Below are positions 16,583 through 50,276 of a stretch of DNA of 64,000 nucleotides, in pieces. The notes beneath the pieces are model-generated. The model had not been told where the DNA came from and did not search any database. It worked only from the letters and a program-made list of their open reading frames with translations. Made by a program: the position numbers and the translations under genes. This stretch comes from Clostridia bacterium. GTDB lineage: Bacteria > Bacillota_A > Clostridia > Christensenellales > Aristaeellaceae. Positions within the stretch are counted from its first letter, which is position 1, and the number at the start of each line of letters is the position of its first letter. Where the stretch lies: positions 1 through 64,000 of the forward strand of contig JAFXSH010000174.1 in NCBI GenBank assembly GCA_017525805.1, in the 5' to 3' direction.

Positions 16583-17587
16583 TTATTGAGCGTCAGCCGC
16601 CATCAGAGCGCGCATCGCTTTCTGAAGCGCGACGTGCATGGAGTCGTTTCTGTCAAAAGTGGGATGGAAGATAGGATTCTGATGTTTATAAGAAAGATTG
16701 TTGCAATAGGAAGCTACGTTGCGGATATAAAGCAGCACGTTGGTATCGCCTTCCAGATCTTTTTCGATGCTGACGGGTTCGCCAAACTTGTAGGAGGTGG
16801 CGATAGAAGAGGGTTCTACGCTTTCCACAGAAGCCAGATCATGGAAGAAGGTCAGGAATTCAGATTCATTCTTGAAGTTGGCGTCGACGGTTCCCTGCTT
16901 GTTCAGCCGCCATTCCACGGTCACATTGTCGCCATCCACGTCCACGATCACGACGCCGATCACATACAGGTTGGAGGCTACCAGTTCAAACACCTGCTTG
17001 CCCTGTTTGGTCAGGTCGATCGCGGCGAAGTTGTACCACTTCTTGGTCAGGCCGGGCTTTTCCTGACGGAATTCCAGACCGCCAACGCAGACTGTATTGC
17101 TGGAATACCATTCAATGGAATTCTTTTCGGAAACCGTACCGTCTTTGTTGATTTCAAACCATTTTTCGATTTCTTCATAGACTGCATCCATATCTTCATC
17201 TCGGAAAAGATGCACATAAGGATTATCCCCATTTTGATAATAGGTTGAATAGAAAGCATCTTTTATTTGTTCAAAAGAATCACCGGAAACATAGAATGCC
17301 CACGGAAGCTTTGTTTTGTTCTGAACGAGGCCATCATGTCCCAATGTGTGAAAATAGAGCGTTCCGCTTTTTGTTTCGGAGTTGTCAAAGTTCCATTTGC
17401 CGTTTTCGTACCAGAACGAAGTCCACTTTCCCGCGTTTCCTTTAAGGTCAAGATCGTAAACTGCGTCAGAGTCACCGTAAGGAATATCAATTGGAATGTA
17501 ATCCTCCAACGTTGGCTGTTCCGCGAAAGCTGCGAATGTTGTCAGCAGCAGACCAAGCGCCAAGAGCAGTGCAAATATTCTTTTCAT
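16583..17587 (-). CDS. Secreted protein of unknown function
   Basis: A 334-residue protein with a clear signal peptide (MKRIFALLLALGLLLTTFAAFA, cleavage before EQPTLEDYI). The mature part is rich in aromatic and acidic residues, with few cysteines and no membrane anchor or repeat. I do not recognise a family. A promoter should lie in the AT-rich 250-base gap upstream. The lower GC of the gap and gene compared with neighbours hints at transfer, but only weakly. Confidence 0.7.
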   Translation of the reverse strand: MKRIFALLLALGLLLTTFAAFAEQPTLEDYIPIDIPYGDSDAVYDLDLKGNAGKWTSFWYENGKWNFDNSETKSGTLYFHTLGHDGLVQNKTKLPWAFYVSGDSFEQIKDAFYSTYYQNGDNPYVHLFRDEDMDAVYEEIEKWFEINKDGTVSEKNSIEWYSSNTVCVGGLEFRQEKPGLTKKWYNFAAIDLTKQGKQVFELVASNLYVIGVVIVDVDGDNVTVEWRLNKQGTVDANFKNESEFLTFFHDLASVESVEPSSIATSYKFGEPVSIEKDLEGDTNVLLYIRNVASYCNNLSYKHQNPIFHPTFDRNDSMHVALQKAMRALMAADAQ

Positions 17588-17841
17588 GAGTATGCATCCT
17601 TTCCCTTTTTTATTCTGGCTTTTCTCTTGCCAACCCCATTATATTCTGAAAGTAATATAAAGTCAATACCCAAAGAAAATATTTTTCTTTCAAGAGGTAA
17701 ATAATGGGCCCAATTTGGATGGGCTTAAAAGGGTGAATATTTACATCTCAATAGTAATTTATTTTTCATGACTTTTATGAAACTATTGCGGACAATTTGA
17801 AAATGATATGATGTAGAAAAAGAAAGAACGAGGTTTTCGTT

Positions 17842-18177
17842 ATGGATGTCGGCGCAAGAATCGTGGAATTAAGAAAAAAGATTGGCTTAAGCCAATATGG
17901 CTTGCAAAAACGGACAGGAATCTCACAGGGGTCGTTGAGCCAATATGAAGCTGGGTTGAAGATTCCGGGAACAGACACCATTGAAAGGATTTGCGACGGC
18001 CTGGGCATATCAATGGCGGAATTTTTTGAAATCAACACGGATGAAAGCATGCAGCGCATCGCTTTGGACGATCGCGAAAGAAATCTGGTGGCCTGTTACC
18101 GGGTGCTGACCGAAGCGCAGAAAAAGGATATTTTAACGGTGCTGAATGTTCTGGCCGATCAGTCCGGCGACGAATGA
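17842..18177 (+). CDS. XRE-family transcriptional regulator
   Basis: A 111-residue protein with a helix-turn-helix at residues 5-60: IVELRKKIGLSQYGLQKRTGISQGSLSQYEAGLKIPGTDTIERICDGLGIS, followed by a short helical C-terminal part. It is typical of Cro/C1-type regulators of unknown target. ACGAGG lies about 10 bases before the ATG. A second, shorter XRE gene begins 16 bases after its stop. Such pairs often govern mobile or defence genes, but none are next to them here. Confidence 0.88.
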   Translation: MDVGARIVELRKKIGLSQYGLQKRTGISQGSLSQYEAGLKIPGTDTIERICDGLGISMAEFFEINTDESMQRIALDDRERNLVACYRVLTEAQKKDILTVLNVLADQSGDE

Positions 18178-33171: not shown

Positions 33172-33753
33172 ATGGAGCTGTACCAGCCAACGGAAGAAGA
33201 ACTGCTGCGGGAAATGCGGCACGTGAAAAGAAAAAACAGGCGCAAGCGTCTGGCGTGGGGATTGCTGGTTTGGTTTACGCTGGCCGCCGCGTTTGGCTGG
33301 TATGTGTTCAACCGGTATTATACGCTGGCGGTGGTGCAGGGCGCGGGAATGAATGATACCCTGCTCAGCGGCAGCGTGATCCTTTGCCGCCGCACCCAGG
33401 GCGTCCGGCCCAAGGCGGGGGACGTGATCCTCTTCGAGCATGGCGACGGCTGGCAGCTCAAGCGTGTCGCCGCCGTAGCGGGCGACAGCGTGGCCTTGAG
33501 CCAGAAGGGCCGGTTATGGATCAATGGAAAAGTTCTGTCCGGCTTCAAAAGCGATTTTTCGGGATATGACGCGGAAATGGCGCTGCGGCCCGTCACCGTG
33601 CCGGAGGATTCATTTTTTGTGCTGGGGGACGAATATACGCTGTCTGTGGACAGCCGGAGCGGCGATTATGGCTTTGTAAAATCGGAAGATATCCTGGCCG
33701 TGGCGGAATATACGGTGTGGCCGCTGTACCGGGCGGGCCAAATGATCCGGTGA
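33172..33753 (+). CDS. Signal-peptidase-I-fold protein lacking the catalytic serine
   Basis: A 193-residue S26-family protein with one N-terminal membrane helix (residues about 27-45). In active enzymes the nucleophile is the Ser of G-x-S-M-x-P-T. Here the segment reads VVQGAGMNDTLL: the Ser position is Gly59 and the Pro position Asp62. The general-base Lys is kept (Lys97 in QLKRVAAVAGD), and so are the late GDxxxxSxDSR elements (LGDEYTLSVDSRSGDYG). It is therefore probably inactive or altered in chemistry. It begins the surface locus, 22 bases before the sortase-like gene. Confidence 0.85.
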   Translation: MELYQPTEEELLREMRHVKRKNRRKRLAWGLLVWFTLAAAFGWYVFNRYYTLAVVQGAGMNDTLLSGSVILCRRTQGVRPKAGDVILFEHGDGWQLKRVAAVAGDSVALSQKGRLWINGKVLSGFKSDFSGYDAEMALRPVTVPEDSFFVLGDEYTLSVDSRSGDYGFVKSEDILAVAEYTVWPLYRAGQMIR

Positions 33754-33775
33754 GAAAATTGGAAGGAACAGATCG

Positions 33776-34648
33776 ATGAAGAGCTTTTTTGGTCACCTGG
33801 CGTGCCTGCTGATCATCCTGGCCGTGCTGGCCTGGTTTCTGTTTCCCTATCTCAGCGATCAGTACGACCAGGCGCAGCGCGTATCGCTGATCGAAAGCTT
33901 TGAACAGCAAGTAAAAGCCATGGAACCCAGCCAGGCCGCCGCCGTTAAAGCCGCCTGGAAGCAGTACAATGAAAGCGTATCTTCCGGCGCGGGGCAGGCC
34001 CCGGGTATCGAAACGGTGAACGGGCTGATCGCCGTGCTGGAGATCCCCGATATCGGCGTGCGCCTGCCGGTTTATCCCGCGGGAAACAGCCAGGCCAGAG
34101 ATACCGGCGCGGTTCATGTGGCCGCCAGCTCGCTGCCCACGGGCGAAGCGGGGACGCGCACGGTGCTGGCCGGGAACAATGGGCGTTTGGCCCAGTTGGA
34201 CAACCCCTGGATCGATCCCTGGCTGGAGAAGTTCCAGGTGTTCAGCGCCCAGCTGCTGCATCGCCTGGATCAGGTGAAGCAGGGAAGCGTCATGTATCTT
34301 TACACGCTCTGCGGTGTGCAGGCCTATGAAGTGGTGGAGACCCAGAAAGCGCAGGCAGGCCAGATCCGCATGCCGGAGGGCCAAAACGCCTGGCTGGCCG
34401 TGATGACCAACTTAGGCGGCCAGCAGCGGCAGCTGGTTTACGGCAAACTGCTGAGCATTCCTGAAAACACCATCGTGCTGGAACACAGCGACGGCGCTTC
34501 CATCCCGTCGGATTCGGTGAACGTTCTGCTCATGGGTTTTCCGGTGTTCCTGGTGGGATTGGCAGTGATGCTGTTGGTGGAATTGATCAGACGGTGGCAT
34601 TACCGGCTGCCGGCTGACAGCAAAAAGCGTGAAAAGGCTGAAGGGTGA
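33776..34648 (+). CDS. Class C sortase-fold protein lacking catalytic His and Cys
   Basis: A 290-residue protein with membrane helices at both ends (about 8-25 and 250-270), the layout of class C pilin-polymerising sortases. GLIAVLEIPDIGVRLPVY and AASSLPTGEAGTRTVLAG match the family start. The catalytic His of SGHRG is Asn134 in AGNNG, and the TLVTC motif reads WLAVMTN (around 209-211), with no cysteine near it. The catalytic Arg (Arg218 in QRQLVYG) is kept. The only cysteines are elsewhere. This is a sortase-like pseudoenzyme unless a very different residue serves. It overlaps the next gene by four bases. Confidence 0.85.
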   Translation: MKSFFGHLACLLIILAVLAWFLFPYLSDQYDQAQRVSLIESFEQQVKAMEPSQAAAVKAAWKQYNESVSSGAGQAPGIETVNGLIAVLEIPDIGVRLPVYPAGNSQARDTGAVHVAASSLPTGEAGTRTVLAGNNGRLAQLDNPWIDPWLEKFQVFSAQLLHRLDQVKQGSVMYLYTLCGVQAYEVVETQKAQAGQIRMPEGQNAWLAVMTNLGGQQRQLVYGKLLSIPENTIVLEHSDGASIPSDSVNVLLMGFPVFLVGLAVMLLVELIRRWHYRLPADSKKREKAEG

Positions 34649-35868
34649 GGGGTATGAGGAAAAAGCTACTGAGACTCTTGGTTTGGCTGATCATCGTCCT
34701 GCAGACGGCGGGGCTTTGTTTTCCCGCGCAGGCGGAACGCCTCGGATCGCTGACCATGGAACTGCCCGCGGACAAAGCGGAAAAGTACAAGGACGCGACC
34801 ATTGAAATGAGCCTGTACAAAATCGCCGAACGCAACGTCAGTTCCACTGGCGTCGTGTCCTGGGGCATTGGCTCGAATTACGAAAGTCTGCGGGCTGAAA
34901 TCACGGAAATCATGGAGGATCTGTTGGAGGGTCAGGAGAAGAACCAGAAAATTCTGGACGCGATCGCCGTCATTACCAGAATCATTAGCAAAAAGCAGCT
35001 CAATCCCATCAAGAAAGCCACTATGACGAATGGAAAAATAACGTTCGACGGGCTTCAAGAGGGTGTTTACTATATGGAAATGAGCCAAGGACCGGAAAGC
35101 CTTACCATACAGTCTCCGCTCGTTCCCATTCCGCTGCAATACACCTATAACGGGCAGATGGTGGTCCTTTACAACGTGCCTGTGAAGCCCAAAATTGATG
35201 ACGATTCCGCCCCCTCTCCCACCCCTATAACGCCGACGGATGAACCCGACACAACGCCGACGCCTACGCCCACGGTGACGCCCACGGTAACGCCTACGCC
35301 GACGCCGACACCCACGCCGACACCCACGCCGACGCCTACGCCGACACCGACACCCACGGCGACTCCCTCGCCGACTCCCAGTCCGGTGCTCACGCCTCCG
35401 CCGCCCACAGTCATGCCGACGCCAGAGCCCACGGCAACGCCGGAACACACGCCGACGCCTGTGCCTACGCCGACGCCGGAAAACAGACCGACGCCCGTCG
35501 CGCCCCAGACGCCGGTCCCCACAACAACCCCCAACCCCACAGTTACACCGGCGGAAACGCCGCCCGTGCCGACGCCCACGCCCACAGTGGCGCCCACCTT
35601 TGTTCCCGCGATTACGGCGACGCCGTCGCCCAGGCCGACGCGCACGCCTTTGCCGGACAGGAACGTGACGCCGAGCCCCGTTCCCACTTCGACGCCCTAT
35701 ATCGATATTGAGAAGAGGACTCCCAACCCCACCGCCACGCCTGAACCCGGCACCACGCCGCAGCCTACGCCGCCGATGCGCGGCGATCCTACCATCACGA
35801 TTGATGATTACGATACGCCTTTGGGACTGGGCGCGATCATCAATCATGTGGGCGACTGTTTCGACTGA
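34645..35868 (+). CDS. Pilin-like secreted protein with a long Pro-Thr stalk and no LPXTG anchor
   Basis: A 407-residue protein. After a signal peptide (KLLRLLVWLIIVLQTAGLCFPAQA), residues 31-185 look like the N-terminal domain of Gram-positive pilins: GSLTMEL, then NGKITFDGLQEGVYYMEM and SLTIQSPLVPIPLQY, as in shaft pilins. A stalk of about 190 residues of Thr-Pro repeats follows. The end is DDYDTPLGLG followed by a short hydrophobic run and GDCFD. There is no LPXTG, membrane helix or basic tail. The start may be GTG 34645, overlapping the sortase-like stop, or ATG 34654. Its place after two processing-enzyme homologues suggests it is their partner. Confidence 0.75.
   Translation: MRGMRKKLLRLLVWLIIVLQTAGLCFPAQAERLGSLTMELPADKAEKYKDATIEMSLYKIAERNVSSTGVVSWGIGSNYESLRAEITEIMEDLLEGQEKNQKILDAIAVITRIISKKQLNPIKKATMTNGKITFDGLQEGVYYMEMSQGPESLTIQSPLVPIPLQYTYNGQMVVLYNVPVKPKIDDDSAPSPTPITPTDEPDTTPTPTPTVTPTVTPTPTPTPTPTPTPTPTPTPTPTATPSPTPSPVLTPPPPTVMPTPEPTATPEHTPTPVPTPTPENRPTPVAPQTPVPTTTPNPTVTPAETPPVPTPTPTVAPTFVPAITATPSPRPTRTPLPDRNVTPSPVPTSTPYIDIEKRTPNPTATPEPGTTPQPTPPMRGDPTITIDDYDTPLGLGAIINHVGDCFD
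35206..35790 (+). repeat. Thr-Pro-coding low-complexity repeat within the pilin-like gene
   Basis: The sequence is built from ACG-CC(G/C) and ACA-CCC-type units coding for Thr-Pro dipeptides, densest at 35250-35360. Such tracts expand and contract by slippage. On the minus strand it gives Gly-Val-rich open frames that are not genes. Confidence 0.9.
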
Positions 35869-35897
35869 TTTCTGCTGAAAGGATTGGGTGACAGCCC

Positions 35898-38024
35898 ATG
35901 AAAAGGATGAATCAAGGCATGAAAAAAGCGCTGTGCCTTTTACTGGCTCTGTCGCTTCTTCTTACAGCCCTTCCCATTTCCGTTCTGGCCGAGGATGACT
36001 GGGACGATTGGGAGGACTGGGAAATCTGGGACGGCGGCAGCGATTTAGGCTGGAGTGACCCGGATGCCGAGGAAGAGGAAGAAGCGGAAGAAGAGATTGA
36101 GTTTCCCGATGAATTGCTGGTGGGCCATCCCACCGTCATGAAGGGCGATTTCTTTACGGAGATGTTTGGCAATGATACGGCGGATATCGACGTGCGCGCC
36201 CTGATTCACGGCTATAATCTGGTCAATTGGGATCAGGAGCAGGGCACTTATGTGATCGATACCTCCGTGGTGGCCCGGGTGATCGTTGCTGAGGACGCCG
36301 AGGGGAACCGCACCTATTTCATGGCCCTCCACGAAGACCTTTTCTACTCTGACGGCACCCCCATCACGGCGTGGGATTACGCTTTCTCGCTGCTGCTGAT
36401 GATGAGCCCGGAAATAGAAGAAATCGGCGGCAAGATCTACCGTGCCGAGCACATCTTAGGCTACGACGATTACATCACCAAAAAAACCTTTGCTTTGGGC
36501 GGCGTGGAGGTGCTGAACGATTATCAACTGGCCATTACGCTGGACCATGAATTCCTGCCGTACTTCTTTGAAATCGGCCTGCTGCTGTGCTGCCCGTATC
36601 CCATCCAGGTGATTGCGCCGGGCTGCAAAGTGTACGACGACGGGTACGGCGTGTACATCGGCAACGAGGACCCTGAAATCAAGGAACCGATTTTCACCGC
36701 CGAGCTGCTGCGCGAAACGATCCTGGACCCGGAAACGGGCTACAACACCCATCCTTCCGTGGTGTCCGGCCCCTATGTGATGACTTCCTATGACGGGGTG
36801 ACCGCCCATTTTGAGAAAAATCCCTATTTCAAAGGCACCATGGACGGCGTAATCCCCACCATCGAGCGGATCAGCTTTACCCTGGCGGATAACGATACCC
36901 TGATCCAGCAGTTGGCGGACGGCGAGCTGCACCTGGTCAATAAGGTGGTGTACGGCCCCACCATTCAGGACGGTATGCAGAACGGCCCCAGCAAGGGCAT
37001 CCGTTTCTCGCCCTATCCGCGCATCGGTCTTTCCTTCCTCACCTTCACTTTCGACTGGCCCACGGTACATGAAATGGAGGTGCGGCAGGCCATCGCCTGG
37101 TGTATGGACCGGGACGCCCTCACCAAAGCCTACTGCACGGATTACGGCCTGCGGGTGGACGGCTACTTCGGCATTGAGCAATGGGAATACCTGCTGGTGA
37201 ACGGCCAGCTGGATTATCCCGTGGATACCGATCCCGAGCATCCCATGACCGACGCGGAAATCGATAAGGCCATTGAGGAATGGGAAAAGCTGAACCTGGA
37301 TAACCTGACCGTTTATACGGTGAACACCGACATGGCCAATGAACTGCTGGACAAGGCGGGATGGACGCTGAACCGCCAGGGCGAAGCCTACCGCCCCGGC
37401 GTGGACGACGCGCGCTGCAAGATGATCGACGGCGAGCTGATCCCCCTGGACCTGTCCATGATGTATCCGGCGGGCAACCACATCGCCGAATACCTGCAGG
37501 AGTACATGATCGATAACCTGAACCAATGCGGCATCCTGCTCACCCTGGTGCCCACGGAGATGGAAGAATTGCTGCTTACCTACTACCGGGAAAAGCCGCG
37601 CACCACGGATATGATCTATCTGGCCACCAACTTCCACGTGGTGGTGGATCCGGCCATCACATACAGCTGCGATACCACCCCCAATCATCTGATCTGGAAC
37701 AATACCTACAGCGACGATGAAGAACTGTACCAGCGCGCCGTGGATATGCGCAAAACCCCTCCCGGAGCCATCTTTGAGTATGTGACCAAGTGGATCGCTT
37801 TCCAGGAGCGGTACAATGAGGTGCTGCCCTGCATCCCCATTTATTCCAATATCTATTTCGACTTCTACACGGAGCAGCTCCAGAACTACTATATCACCGC
37901 CCATGTAACCTGGTCCCAGGCCATTTTGGAAGCTTACTTCGGCCTGATGGAGGAAGAAGACTGGAACGACTGGGACGAGGAAGAAGAAGAATGGGACGAT
38001 GAGGACGCGTTTTTTGAGGATTAA
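35898..38024 (+). CDS. Family-5 solute-binding protein with acidic Asp-Trp tails
   Basis: A 708-residue exported protein. The signal peptide ends near residue 31 (LLLTALPISVLA); the start may be 35898 or the ATG seven codons later. There is no lipobox cysteine. The body is an OppA-like (SBP_bac_5) domain: ALHEDLFYSDGTPITAWDYAFSL, VSGPYVMTSYDG, VRQAIAWCMDRDALTKAY. Both ends carry unusual tails: DDWDDWEDWEIW (about 33-44) followed by a poly-Glu run, and EEEDWNDWDEEEEEW at the C-terminus. No permease is nearby. Its position in the surface locus suggests a non-transport role. Confidence 0.85.
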   Translation: MKRMNQGMKKALCLLLALSLLLTALPISVLAEDDWDDWEDWEIWDGGSDLGWSDPDAEEEEEAEEEIEFPDELLVGHPTVMKGDFFTEMFGNDTADIDVRALIHGYNLVNWDQEQGTYVIDTSVVARVIVAEDAEGNRTYFMALHEDLFYSDGTPITAWDYAFSLLLMMSPEIEEIGGKIYRAEHILGYDDYITKKTFALGGVEVLNDYQLAITLDHEFLPYFFEIGLLLCCPYPIQVIAPGCKVYDDGYGVYIGNEDPEIKEPIFTAELLRETILDPETGYNTHPSVVSGPYVMTSYDGVTAHFEKNPYFKGTMDGVIPTIERISFTLADNDTLIQQLADGELHLVNKVVYGPTIQDGMQNGPSKGIRFSPYPRIGLSFLTFTFDWPTVHEMEVRQAIAWCMDRDALTKAYCTDYGLRVDGYFGIEQWEYLLVNGQLDYPVDTDPEHPMTDAEIDKAIEEWEKLNLDNLTVYTVNTDMANELLDKAGWTLNRQGEAYRPGVDDARCKMIDGELIPLDLSMMYPAGNHIAEYLQEYMIDNLNQCGILLTLVPTEMEELLLTYYREKPRTTDMIYLATNFHVVVDPAITYSCDTTPNHLIWNNTYSDDEELYQRAVDMRKTPPGAIFEYVTKWIAFQERYNEVLPCIPIYSNIYFDFYTEQLQNYYITAHVTWSQAILEAYFGLMEEEDWNDWDEEEEEWDDEDAFFED

Positions 38025-38063
38025 AGGGCGTCTCCCTGATCGCGACGACGGAGGATGGGAACA

Positions 38064-38513
38064 GTGGCAAAAACGAAGCTGAAGCGCATGGACCGCTTCG
38101 AGTTGCTGGAATTGCTTTACAATATGCGCAAGGCCAATGTAGACCTGACGGAGCGGCTTGAAGCGGCGGAACAGAAGATCCAGGCCCTGGAAAAGGAAGC
38201 AGACGCGCGGGCGGAAGCCGTGCGGGCTGAGTATGTGCAGCGCATCGACGAACTTCGCATGCAGGGCGCGGCCTCGGAACTGCAGAAGCGCATGAAAGAA
38301 ATCGAAGAACAGCTGACCGCGTTCCAGCGGATCACCGGCATGGAAACAGCCTCCGGAAATCAGGATACGGGCCGCAAAGAAGAAGACATGGCCGGCGTTT
38401 CCGCGCCGCCGGAACCCGATGCCCAGCCCACGGCGGAAAATACGGCTTCTCCCCAGGAAAGCGGCGCGGCATCCGGCACGCCAGATCGTGAAGCTGGGGA
38501 AAGTAGGGAGTAA
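38064..38513 (+). CDS. Coiled-coil protein with a disordered tail
   Basis: A 149-residue cytoplasmic-looking protein. Residues 5-90 are strongly helical and charged (FELLELLYNMRKANVDLTERLEAAEQKIQALEKEA) and probably form a coiled coil. The last 50 residues are Ser/Pro/Ala-rich and likely disordered. The GTG at 38064 is chosen because GGAGG ends nine bases before it, whereas the ATG at 38055 abuts that site. I do not recognise a family. It lies between the solute-binding protein and the intact signal peptidase, three bases before the latter. Confidence 0.65.
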   Translation: MAKTKLKRMDRFELLELLYNMRKANVDLTERLEAAEQKIQALEKEADARAEAVRAEYVQRIDELRMQGAASELQKRMKEIEEQLTAFQRITGMETASGNQDTGRKEEDMAGVSAPPEPDAQPTAENTASPQESGAASGTPDREAGESRE

Positions 38514-38516
38514 GCC

Positions 38517-39107
38517 ATGGCGAAACGGACGAAACAGACGCCCTTTCCGGATCTGGACGCCATCCAGAATGAGATGCGGCGGTCCAAAAGCCAGAGCAAG
38601 TATCATCAGGCGCTGAAAAGCACTGTGGGCACCATCGTGGTGGTGGCGGCCATCGCGGTGCTGGTGTCCTCCATTTTCCTGCCTGTGCTGCGCGTGACCG
38701 GTTCCTCCATGCAGCCCAACTTCGCGCCCGGCAATGTACTGGTAGCCGTGAAAACCAAGGATTATGTGCCCGGCGACGTATGTTCCTTTTACTACAACAA
38801 CAAACTGATCATCAAGCGCGTGATCGCGACCGGCGGCGACATTCTGGAAATCGACGAGGATGGCCGGGTGTCCGTCAACGGACTGATGATGGATGAATCC
38901 TACGTTTCAAGCTATGACCTGGGCCTGTGCGATATCGAGTTTCCTTATCAGGTGCCCACGGAGCAGCTGTTTGTCATGGGCGATAATCGAGCCTCTTCGG
39001 TGGACAGCCGCGTGCAGGCGTTCGGCTGCATCAGTAAAGAAGAATTGATGGGGAAGATCGTGCTGCGCGTGTGGCCCATTCAAAACTTCACCTACTATGG
39101 CATATAA
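38517..39107 (+). CDS. lepB: Signal peptidase I
   Basis: A 196-residue type I signal peptidase with one N-terminal membrane helix (about 38-58). The nucleophile Ser64 lies in TGSSMQPNF and the base Lys100 in LIIKRVIATGGD. The late GDNRASSVDSR motif is complete. This enzyme has the full catalytic set, in contrast to the homologue at 33172 in the same locus. It probably releases or processes the secreted proteins of the locus. A bidirectional terminator hairpin follows the stop. Confidence 0.93.
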   Translation: MAKRTKQTPFPDLDAIQNEMRRSKSQSKYHQALKSTVGTIVVVAAIAVLVSSIFLPVLRVTGSSMQPNFAPGNVLVAVKTKDYVPGDVCSFYYNNKLIIKRVIATGGDILEIDEDGRVSVNGLMMDESYVSSYDLGLCDIEFPYQVPTEQLFVMGDNRASSVDSRVQAFGCISKEELMGKIVLRVWPIQNFTYYGI

Positions 39108-47979: not shown

Positions 47980-48231
47980 TCATGATTCAAAGGGGACACT
48001 GCATTCATACAAGTGCTCCGGCGCGATATCCACATCGTCGCGCCAGACCACCGTGCCGTATTCCGCTCTGGCCCGCATGAAAAAAGGCAGGCTTTTCAAT
48101 TCCGCGCATACCTTCTTTTCCAGCAGAGGCCGGGCGTCATAAATACGCTTTTCCCCGTTTTCAAAGGTCAGCAGTATGGTATAGTCCGGACGGGGCTGCA
48201 CGGACGCCACACACCAAATGGGGTTTGCCAT
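47980..48231 (-). CDS. DUF2442 protein
   Basis: An 83-residue protein (VASVQPRPDYTILLTFENGEKRIYDARPLLEKKVCAELKSLPFFMRARAEYGTVVWRDDVDIAPEHLYE). It has the DUF2442 layout, ending in the typical W-x-D-D-x-D-I-x-P-E-x-L-Y. These proteins often stand beside a DUF4160 partner in toxin-antitoxin-like pairs, but no partner is present here. It is a solitary gene beside a palindromic element. Confidence 0.75.
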   Translation of the reverse strand: MANPIWCVASVQPRPDYTILLTFENGEKRIYDARPLLEKKVCAELKSLPFFMRARAEYGTVVWRDDVDIAPEHLYECSVPFES

Positions 48232-48276
48232 GGAAGCACCTCAAAATACAGGAAAATGAAATGGCTATTGAATGAA

Positions 48277-49740
48277 TCAGTTGTTCAGCCAGTCTAAAAT
48301 ATCTGGGTAGGTGTAATTCAAATTGTTGTCTTTGCAGTATTGACGCGCATAGCTATCCCGACCCACAGTGAAAAGCAAGTCTTCGGGACACCCCCAAAAC
48401 GCCCTGTTTCCAATAGAAGTAACGCTGTCGGGAATCGTTATGATTGTCAGGCTATGACAATCAGAAAACGCATGATCTCCAATGGAAACGACGCTATTGG
48501 GAATAGTGATGGAAGTTAGACTGGAGCACAAGTCAAATGCCCTATCCCCAATGGAAGTGACGCTGTCGGGAATCGAAATGGACGCTAAATTGGAACACTC
48601 AGAAAATGTCCAATTTCCAATGGAGGTAACACTCTCGGGAATCGAAATGGAAGTAAGGTTGGAACATTTGTAAAATGCGTAATCCCCCATAACCGTGATA
48701 CTGTTGGGAATGGTAACAGATACCAAGCTGGAACACCTATAAAACACCGAATTTTCAATAGAAGTGACGCCGTTGGGAATCGTAATGTTTGTAAGGCCGG
48801 AGCAATTGGAAAACGCTAATTCTCCAATGGAAATGACGCTATCGGGAATGAAAACGGAAGTCAAACTGGTACAATTGGAAAACGCAAAATCTCCAATGAT
48901 CCGAATGCCCACTGGTATCTGATAATCTGTTCTCTGCTTCCCTTTGGGATAACAAACCAACCGCTTATCTTGTTTTGAAAAAAGGACACCATCAATAACC
49001 GCCAGCGCAGGTTGATCCGGAGAAACGATTACTTCAGAGAGATTATCACAGCTTACAAATGGATTATTACCCACTTCGATAACACTATCAGGGATAGACA
49101 CAGTAGTCAGGCTGGAACAATTGCAAAATGCCCTATCTCCAATGATCTGAATCCCTAACGGAATTTGATATTCCGTTTGCTGTTTCCACTGGGGATAATA
49201 GATTAACCGCTTATCGGGTTTTGAAAGCAGAACTTCGTCTATAATCGTAAGGGTAGGATGATCGGAAGAAACAGTGATTTTTATGAGCTTTTCACAGCCC
49301 ATAAAAGGATTGCTGCCAATATAAATAACACTGTCAGGAATGGTAAAACTAACTAAATTAGGACAACCAGCAAATGCCCTATTCCCGATGTAAGTGACGC
49401 TATTTGGGACTGTTATGGAAGATAGGCTGGAACACCAGTAAAATGCCTCATCTGCAATGCAAGTGACGCTGTTGGGAATAGCAACGGAAATCAGATTGGA
49501 ACATTGGAAAAACGCTTTATTTCCAATGGTAGAAATCTTATATCCGTCCAGTTGGTCCGGAATGGTTATTCCTTCATCGTTTCCATTATATCTTGTTATC
49601 TCCGCCGTACCGTCATCCAGCAGAATATAGATATAATCTCCGCTGGTGAAGATTTCCGGTTCCGTTTCCTCGGCACAGGCGGTCAGGCACAGGGAAAGAA
49701 GCAGCAGGGCAATGAGGACGGCAGAAAGCGTCTGTTTCAT
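48277..49740 (-). CDS. BspA-like leucine-rich-repeat lipoprotein
   Basis: A 487-residue surface protein. The signal peptide ends in LTAC (lipobox, Cys21), so it is likely lipid-anchored. The body consists of about 14 LRR_5 repeats of 23 residues (VTSIGNRAF...[12 protein letters not shown], in many variants). Two non-repeat inserts contain [17 protein letters not shown] and its partner [17 protein letters not shown]. BspA-like proteins bind host or bacterial surfaces in gut and oral bacteria. It is monocistronic. Confidence 0.92.
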
Positions 49741-49775
49741 GGGGCGAGCCTCCTTAATTATTTAAAAGAAACAAT

Positions 49776-50276
49776 TCACGGTACGCGATGCAGCAAATCA
49801 AGCGCATCCTGAATCAGCCGTTCGCTGATGTGGCGATTCGCTTTTCTGATTCGCTCCAGGGCTGCTTCCGTTTCCTGTGCGGTAAGAATACTTTCACGGA
49901 AAGCATTGACAAGCACGCCGATGCTGCCCATGATTTTCAGGCCCATATCGGTTGCCACCCTTCGGCCTTGAAACTCATCCATTAACAGCAAATCCGCTTG
50001 CTGTTCATCCGCGTATACAATGGCTTCGCTTTCGCCCAAATCCAGCCCTGCCGCCCGCCGAAGAATGGATACCGCATTGGCGTTTTCAATATGAACCACG
50101 CGAATAAACGGACTGTCTTGTATCAAAACCGCTTCCTCTGAAAACAATTCATTGGAAGTCAATTCCTGATACACGGCGTCCGGAATAATTACATCTCCAA
50201 ACAGCTTGTTCAATACGTTAAGCTGTTGGGCTTTCATGAGCGTAATAAGCGGCGTGGCGTCCGATACGACAATCAT
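49776..50276 (-). CDS. DUF3368 PIN-domain toxin
   Basis: A 166-residue PIN-like nuclease: MIVVSDATPLITLMKAQQLNVL (metal Asp at residue 6), LGESEAIVYADEQQADLLLMDEFQGRR with the acidic set GE-x-E and DE. These are the usual DUF3368 motifs. Such toxins cut RNA and are held by a UPF0175 partner. It overlaps the antitoxin gene by four bases and ends the pair. Confidence 0.87.
   Translation of the reverse strand: MIVVSDATPLITLMKAQQLNVLNKLFGDVIIPDAVYQELTSNELFSEEAVLIQDSPFIRVVHIENANAVSILRRAAGLDLGESEAIVYADEQQADLLLMDEFQGRRVATDMGLKIMGSIGVLVNAFRESILTAQETEAALERIRKANRHISERLIQDALDLLHRVP

Follow-up and report, generated by a model that had tools for sequence, protein, structure and literature searches.

A six-gene surface locus with a conserved C-terminal tag

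The DNA analysed here, referred to as the window, is a 64,000-nucleotide stretch (positions 1 to 64,000 of contig JAFXSH010000174.1, GenBank assembly GCA_017525805.1) from a gut-type Clostridia bacterium of the family Aristaeellaceae. Its plus strand carries, at 33172-39107, six open reading frames (ORFs), designated genes A to F, all of which are present. The products of A and B have enzyme folds and lack catalytic residues, the product of C ends in a conserved tag, and D encodes a candidate receptor for that tag. The features of the locus are:

33172..33753, plus strand: gene A, signal-peptidase fold, catalytic Ser replaced by Gly59, Lys97 retained, N-terminal segment hydrophobic
33776..34648, plus strand: gene B, class C sortase fold, His replaced by Asn134 and Cys by Asn212, Arg retained, hydrophobic segments at both ends
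34645..35868, plus strand: gene C, pilin-like and secreted, with a Thr-Pro stalk, an alternative ATG at 34654 and the tag at its end
35800..35865, plus strand: C-terminal tag, IDDYDTPLGLGAIINHVGDCFD, directly 5′ of the stop codon of gene C
35898..38024, plus strand: gene D, OppA fold (SBP_bac_5), without a lipobox, with an acidic tail, starting 30 nt past gene C; candidate tag receptor
38055..38513, plus strand: gene E, small, coiled-coil-like module protein
38517..39107, plus strand: gene F, type I signal peptidase, intact

An initial annotation of this run, made from the DNA letters, had held that the hallmarks of enzyme and substrate were lost together here and had proposed co-evolution to a non-catalytic role; it did not mention the conserved tag at the end of C.

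Conserved loss of catalytic residues in A and B

Gene A matches Peptidase_S26 (E 3.3e-21) and TIGR02227 (E 2.8e-28), with GAGMNDTL at the site of the serine motif and the Lys retained; its product has a signal-peptidase fold but not the catalytic Ser-Lys pair. Gene B matches Sortase (E 1.5e-7) and the class C sortase model (E 4.5e-20 and 72 bits, below the curated cut-off of 160), with AGNNG at the site of the His motif, VMTNLGG at that of the Cys motif and the Arg retained; the class C sortase fold is there, but the catalytic His/Cys/Arg set is not. A homologue of B (L077) gave a fold match to sortase C structures. The initial annotation had described A as a signal-peptidase fold with Ser changed to Gly, B as a class C sortase fold without His and Cys, and F as an intact signal peptidase with Ser and Lys, and on all three it was right.

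To place these losses, a survey of 250 genomes of the family (completeness not stated) was used, in which matches to a B profile occurred in 57 genomes, many of them being ordinary active class C sortases. Sixteen loci carrying both A and B were compared, comprising the window and picks from the strong B matches; L069, which overlaps L070, was left out of the A and B counts, and a further strong match with short flanks only (G167) lies outside the 16. The full A-F order is present in 13 of these loci and is consistent as far as readable in the three that are cut by contig ends (L003, L076, and L079). Among four genomes of a species collection with close orthologues, three have all six genes and one (L003) is cut. 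The Ser of A is replaced by Gly or Ala in all 16 loci, with Lys kept in 15. Likewise, B has lost Cys (to Asn, Glu, Gln, Pro, or Ala) and His (to Asn, Pro, or Ser) in 16 of 16, with Arg kept in most, while all nine active class C sortase paralogues have His, Cys, and Arg. Both His and Cys are also absent from all 21 rows of an alignment of B from the window with 20 database homologues of 46-90% identity, from which P0001, identical to B, had been removed. Thus, the missing residues are conserved as missing, and the gene order is conserved with them, two points that the initial annotation had proposed to check.

Comparison of the window with its four closest relatives gave dN/dS values of 0.15-0.24 for A, 0.08-0.39 for B, 0.12-0.15 for D, 0.27-0.46 for E, 0.08-0.10 for F, and 0.16-0.19 for a neighbouring DnaC-like gene. 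The losses in A and B are old and fixed, and the genes are under purifying selection. The absence of catalytic residues could also be put down to local decay, with A and B as pseudogenes in the window lineage, for which the initial annotation had named two signs: relatives with the same gene order and intact catalytic residues, found in none of the 16 loci, and dN/dS near 1, which was not seen for A or B. Because the same residues are absent in 16 of 16 loci, the frames are open and dN/dS is purifying, pseudogene decay is rejected and its probability is considered negligible.

Gene F keeps Ser and Lys in the window and in 9 of 13 loci overall. In the other four (L071, L073, L074, and L075), Ser is replaced by Asn and Lys by Arg, so that neither of the module's two signal-peptidase-fold genes has the catalytic pair. 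Separately, more sortase-like genes without the Cys motif were observed at L019, L021, L023, and L026, some beside active class C sortases; they seem to make up a second set of catalytically empty sortases in the family.

A span-free tag at the C-terminus of gene C

The pilin-like product of gene C has a Thr-Pro stalk and lacks an LPXTG-like motif, in agreement with the initial annotation, and it also lacks a C-terminal hydrophobic span and a basic tail. Its C-terminus is a conserved tag, DDYDTPLGLGAIINHVGDCFD, followed directly by the stop codon. The last 22 residues are identical in the window protein and four aligned homologues, and the tag is present in every locus where the end of C can be read. 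The consensus, roughly [DE][DE]Y-x-TPLG-x(5)-[NIM][HN]-[VIA]-G-[DEV]-C-[FYL]-[DE] with a free C-terminus, also closes other proteins in the databases, several of which contain Cna_B domains. Among 79 tags, the Cys at position -3 is present in 73, and positions outside the motif used to pick them are conserved as well (P in 62, L in 67, and G in 66 of the 79). Mean identity over the last 20 residues is 73%, compared to 10-16% in upstream windows, in an ungapped comparison of tags picked by part of the same motif; weight is given here to the positions outside it, because codon-position entropy over the motif is partly circular. The bodies of the tagged proteins are themselves related, with a shared blastp match in 1344 of 1540 pairs.

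The tag was then traced across the family using DNA patterns, which capture only part of its variants. A first tag type gave 72 matches in 39 of the 250 genomes (6 for the reversed pattern), and a second gave 58 matches in 57 genomes (0 for the reversed pattern), although the second-type match in G228 ends in TGG and is not a tag. A class-wide sample of 341 genomes, with G001 and at least one other member of the family (G039) among them, was searched for the second type alone and gave no match. With a looser pattern applied to four single-contig genomes, three contained four tags each and the fourth contained six plus one chance match. Tagged ORFs range from about 190 to >3500 residues. Of four tagged proteins scanned for domains, three have Cna_B together with some of the DUF7601, FctA, SpaA, and leucine-rich modules, and the fourth gave a weak Muc_B2 match alone. 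Such tags close many surface-type proteins across this bacterial family.

Four tag pieces were compared with the domain collections: none matched NCBIfam at E values up to 10, and in Pfam the four yielded a single match, a weak one (E 0.2) to a ribosome-associated family. Going by these scans, neither collection holds a model of the tag. A metagenome protein, P0133, was also observed to combine a sortase domain and a MucBP module with a tag-like C-terminus, DDYDTPLNPGYNDLQIGVCFE, and is possibly a natural fusion of sortase and tag.

The tag is linked to gene D

Downstream sequence (up to 4 kb, less at contig ends) was read for 72 distinct tag genes, namely that of the window and the de-duplicated family matches. 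A D homologue lies downstream on the same strand in 47 of them, and in 45 of these 47 it starts within about 160 nt; of the remaining two, one is a loose and probably false tag (653 nt) and the other has a second tag gene in between. The association also holds when read from D. At 30 D loci, taken as the best match per genome, the gene 5′ of D carries the tag in every case, 28 by pattern and 2 as variants (NHVGDTFD and NIDDCID), and in 14 more hand-picked family D loci (including three repeats) it does so in 13, with Thr for Cys in five. In a wider census of 2826 ORFs from fetched loci, a short C-terminal motif was found in 102, with D next in 79 and not in 23, a rate that is biased because the loci had been chosen for tags or D.

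The two elements are also distributed together. At E 1e-60, D was detected in 114 of the 250 family genomes, including 81 of the 85 with either tag type versus 33 of the 165 without (Fisher 3e-33, uncorrected for kinship). Within the class-wide sample, D matches occurred in G001 and G497 only. The G497 protein (36% identity) has a lipobox, a permease-like gene next to it and no tag, and thus looks like an ordinary transport protein.

The tags were sorted into five classes and compared with a tree of 77 D proteins (76 from the family plus that of G497), built by a quick method with some long branches flagged. Tag class changes 5 times on this tree (minimum 4), compared to a mean of 35.4 after shuffling, and in a single genome (G095) the D copies group with four different tag classes. 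By this comparison, tag class follows the D tree. Based on these alignments and neighbourhoods, the end of gene C is its own conserved C-terminal signal tied to gene D, rather than a decayed anchor.

Two other arrangements of the pair were observed: a second tag gene and D pair lies 5′ of the six-gene module at L076:516-3347, and two tandem tag genes precede a single D gene at L134:7562-9830.

Active sortases and LPXTG proteins near the module

Active class C sortases were sought by comparing ORFs with B and a single active enzyme of that class, and LPXTG proteins by a simple motif plus hydrophobic-span test. In the window, neither an active class C sortase nor an LPXTG protein was found among ORFs of at least 70 amino acids, the scan covering class C and no other sortase class. 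An active class C sortase is present within the fetched stretch in 7 of the 16 loci (L068, L069/L070, L071, L072, L073, L075, and L079), all seven of which also have an LPXTG-type protein by the simple motif test; gene C is without LPXTG in these loci, too. The fetched stretch has no active class C sortase in the other nine, the window among them, and two relatives of the window (G001 and G003) carry one on a separate contig.

Because an active class C sortase and LPXTG-type proteins persist in 7 of the 16 sibling loci, a joint loss of sortase activity and anchor is rejected. Since C carries a separate tag, also beside active sortases, its lack of LPXTG is not an anchor loss that went along with the changes in the enzymes. 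The idea of co-evolution to a non-catalytic role is retained only in part: it fits the conserved losses, the purifying selection and, by analogy, a streptococcal precedent described below (SipA), but the joint loss of enzyme and substrate hallmarks on which the initial annotation had built it does not stand.

These neighbours could instead mean that the module serves ordinary sortase pili in an accessory role, with A and B as SipA-like chaperones for an active class C sortase nearby or elsewhere, C as a tip or basal subunit, and the tag as a structural end strand. The seven loci with active sortases and LPXTG-type proteins, the sortases kept elsewhere in G001 and G003, and the precedent of SipA (PMC4049620) are all consistent with such a role. 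However, no match to A, B, or class C sortase was found in 17 of 32 long tag-D loci, so the tag-D pair stands alone there; an active class C sortase is missing from the fetched stretch at nine of the 16 A-B loci; and the tag, by the part-motif-picked, ungapped comparison above, is far more conserved than the sequence upstream of it. The pilus-accessory explanation is therefore regarded as improbable.

Gene D as a candidate receptor for the tag

Gene D belongs to SBP_bac_5 (PF00496; E 3.8e-35) and has acidic stretches of Asp, Trp, and Glu at both ends, confirming its initial description as a solute-binding protein with acidic Asp-Trp stretches. AlphaFold modelling and fold comparison predict at high confidence that it folds like peptide-binding AppA/OppA, and in the window it has neither a lipobox nor a neighbouring permease. 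One database search returned 1591 protein clusters at E <= 1e-60, and among 120 matches listed, the five NCBI-named records are annotated as hypothetical protein.

A tag kept constant up to its free C-terminus suits the peptide-binding fold of D, from which we infer that D may bind the tag. The residue losses in A and B, the gene order, the tag, its linkage to D and the joint distribution of the two are most readily brought together if the tag is recognised by D while A and B serve, like streptococcal SipA, as non-catalytic scaffolds for assembly, a reading to which about an even chance is given. Under it, exported proteins with Cna_B or pilin-like modules would end in the tag and would come to be located at the surface; gene F would remove signal peptides; and D, mostly without a lipobox, would act outside the membrane, where it would recognise tags of its own class and hold or escort the proteins that carry them. 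In the six-gene form, membrane-bound A and B, catalytically empty but keeping their peptide-binding folds, would act as docking scaffolds, as suggested by the SipA precedent.

A bolder version of this proposal, put forward tentatively and judged to fall somewhat short of an even chance, is that the system is a new kind of sorting system. A span-free C-terminal tag would be read by a dedicated, class-matched receptor of OppA fold instead of a transpeptidase, and in the six-gene form the dead signal peptidase and the dead sortase would provide membrane scaffolds. There would be several tag-receptor classes per genome, and a number of unlinked adhesins may share one receptor class.

Several observations weigh against recognition of the tag by D. 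No D was found in the stretch read for 25 of the 72 tag genes, and at one family locus (L207) no tag precedes D. In four genomes with tags, D gave no match (G055, G128, G228, and G233), though two of them may not contain true tags, judging by the lack of a real stop in G228 and a short frame in G233; conversely, 33 genomes with D have neither tag pattern, and variant tags account for at least some of these. Agreement of tag class with D clade is no proof of contact, as neighbouring genes are co-inherited. Structure models count as mildly negative at most, since single chains with linkers test docking weakly: in a read-through chain of tag and D, AlphaFold gave a confident D and a disordered tag (pLDDT about 28), and in a B-C chain the tag reached a pLDDT of about 50-65 with no clear docking. 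The alignment of B with C carries some noise, with some B tails laid over tag columns. One D clade (L206, L208, L209, L211, and L217) has Thr in place of Cys in its upstream tags (GETYE and GETIE), so Cys chemistry is not essential there, and no Cys in D covaries with that of the tag; a Cys-to-Cys link between tag and D is thereby rejected. Finally, other genes recur beside the pair: in one D subclade, a glycosyltransferase family 2 gene is found in 10 of the 32 long pair loci, and isomerase-like and ROK genes in 7 each.

Some of these points would be accounted for if the tag were read by another, unlinked protein, such as a protease, a ligase, or a lipid- or glycan-attaching enzyme, with D co-expressed but binding a different part of the protein or some released peptide. 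The undocked tag in the models, the tag genes without D, and the recurrent upstream glycosyltransferase are all in line with that, and the near-constant Cys at -3 resembles a modification site. Yet this Cys becomes Thr in one clade, and among the linked neighbours compared, D alone spans all pair loci (which it does by construction), fits the genome-wide profile and agrees with the tag classes. An unlinked reader is considered rather unlikely, although it is the alternative given most weight.

The family and fold of D would equally suit a normal peptide-uptake protein whose link to tagged genes is an operon chance, and a lipobox-like motif does occur in 5 of 76 family D proteins (an approximate count, since some D starts were set by a simple rule); at L175, an ABC-type ATPase and a membrane gene, an ABC-2-like pair, lie about 1.3 kb past D. 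Both observations also count against D as tag receptor. In contrast, no Opp/Dpp-type permease was seen beside D in the 18 plus 14 family loci read by eye, a tag gene precedes D in 30 of 30 loci, and it is the outgroup protein with a lipobox and a permease that has no tag. With few lipoboxes and no such permease beside the family Ds read, D as the lipoprotein of a transporter is not supported, and chance linkage of an uptake protein is held to be very improbable.

Other genes around the locus

Gene E, initially annotated as a coiled-coil protein, exists as an ORF, but a Pfam-type domain scan returned only weak matches of coiled-coil type. A DnaD-domain gene and the DnaC-like ATPase gene lie 5′ of the six-gene run. 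The glycosyltransferase family 2 loci are L118, L120, L125, L127, L130, L131, L135, L167, L168, and L171, often with the isomerase-like and ROK genes. As these genes are absent from the rest of the 32 loci, they look like shared local gene order, though the glycosyltransferase may have a role beside the tag-D pair. Sortase-domain and signal-peptidase-domain genes were seen near a tag-D pair at L184, and an IS200-like transposase gene adjoins D at L183:8048-8515. In the window itself, G+C falls to 0.41-0.46 at 17001-18000 and 48001-50000, compared to roughly 0.55-0.63 across most of its length; these stretches are possibly acquired DNA.

Relation to known systems and implications

In the sortase/LPXTG and exosortase/PEP-CTERM systems, a short C-terminal signal is carried by several proteins per genome and is matched by a dedicated partner family of the same distribution. 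The tag and D likewise form a shared C-terminal signal with a co-distributed partner family, but here the partner has an OppA-type binding fold with no enzyme family match, and the tag has no membrane span. Gene B resembles class C pilus sortases in fold and in its hydrophobic segments at both ends, and some tagged proteins share FctA, SpaA, and Cna_B domains with LPXTG pilins; B differs from those sortases in having neither His nor Cys, and C differs from the pilins in lacking LPXTG, hydrophobic span, and basic tail and in carrying another tag. D shares family and fold with OppA/AppA (PF00496), from which it is set apart by the lack of any Opp/Dpp permease seen beside it, the usual absence of a lipobox, an often acidic tail, and its position directly after the gene of a tagged protein.

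The closest precedent for gene A is SipA of S. pyogenes, a dead signal peptidase essential for assembly of a surface polymer, for which its authors proposed a peptide-binding or scaffold role (PMC4049620). Like SipA/LepA, A has a signal-peptidase fold, has lost catalytic residues and is encoded with surface or pilus proteins. SipA has lost both Ser and Lys (to Asp and Gly), and its partners are a class B sortase and LPXTG pilins (PMC4049620). In contrast, A keeps its Lys in 15 of 16 loci and has as neighbours a class C sortase devoid of catalytic His and Cys and a tagged protein. By analogy, we propose that A and B have the same non-catalytic scaffold role as SipA. A dead signal peptidase alone would be a SipA variant; what would be new is the dead class C sortase beside it and, above all, the tag with its OppA-fold partner. 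A literature search, with preprints and subscription papers outside its reach, found neither the tag strings, nor a dead class C sortase beside a dead signal peptidase, nor a tag with an OppA-fold partner.

What is known of surface display in Gram-positive bacteria concerns mainly sortases, lipoproteins, and wall-binding repeats. If the proposed reading is true, a tag with a non-enzymatic receptor would be a further route of surface display, in which a solute-binding protein has been turned into a protein receptor, and it would help to explain how large adhesin-like proteins without LPXTG are handled in these bacteria. Two dead enzyme folds, conserved side by side, are also placed in one testable setting. 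The linkage of tag and D suggests a previously unrecognised way of handling surface proteins in this family.

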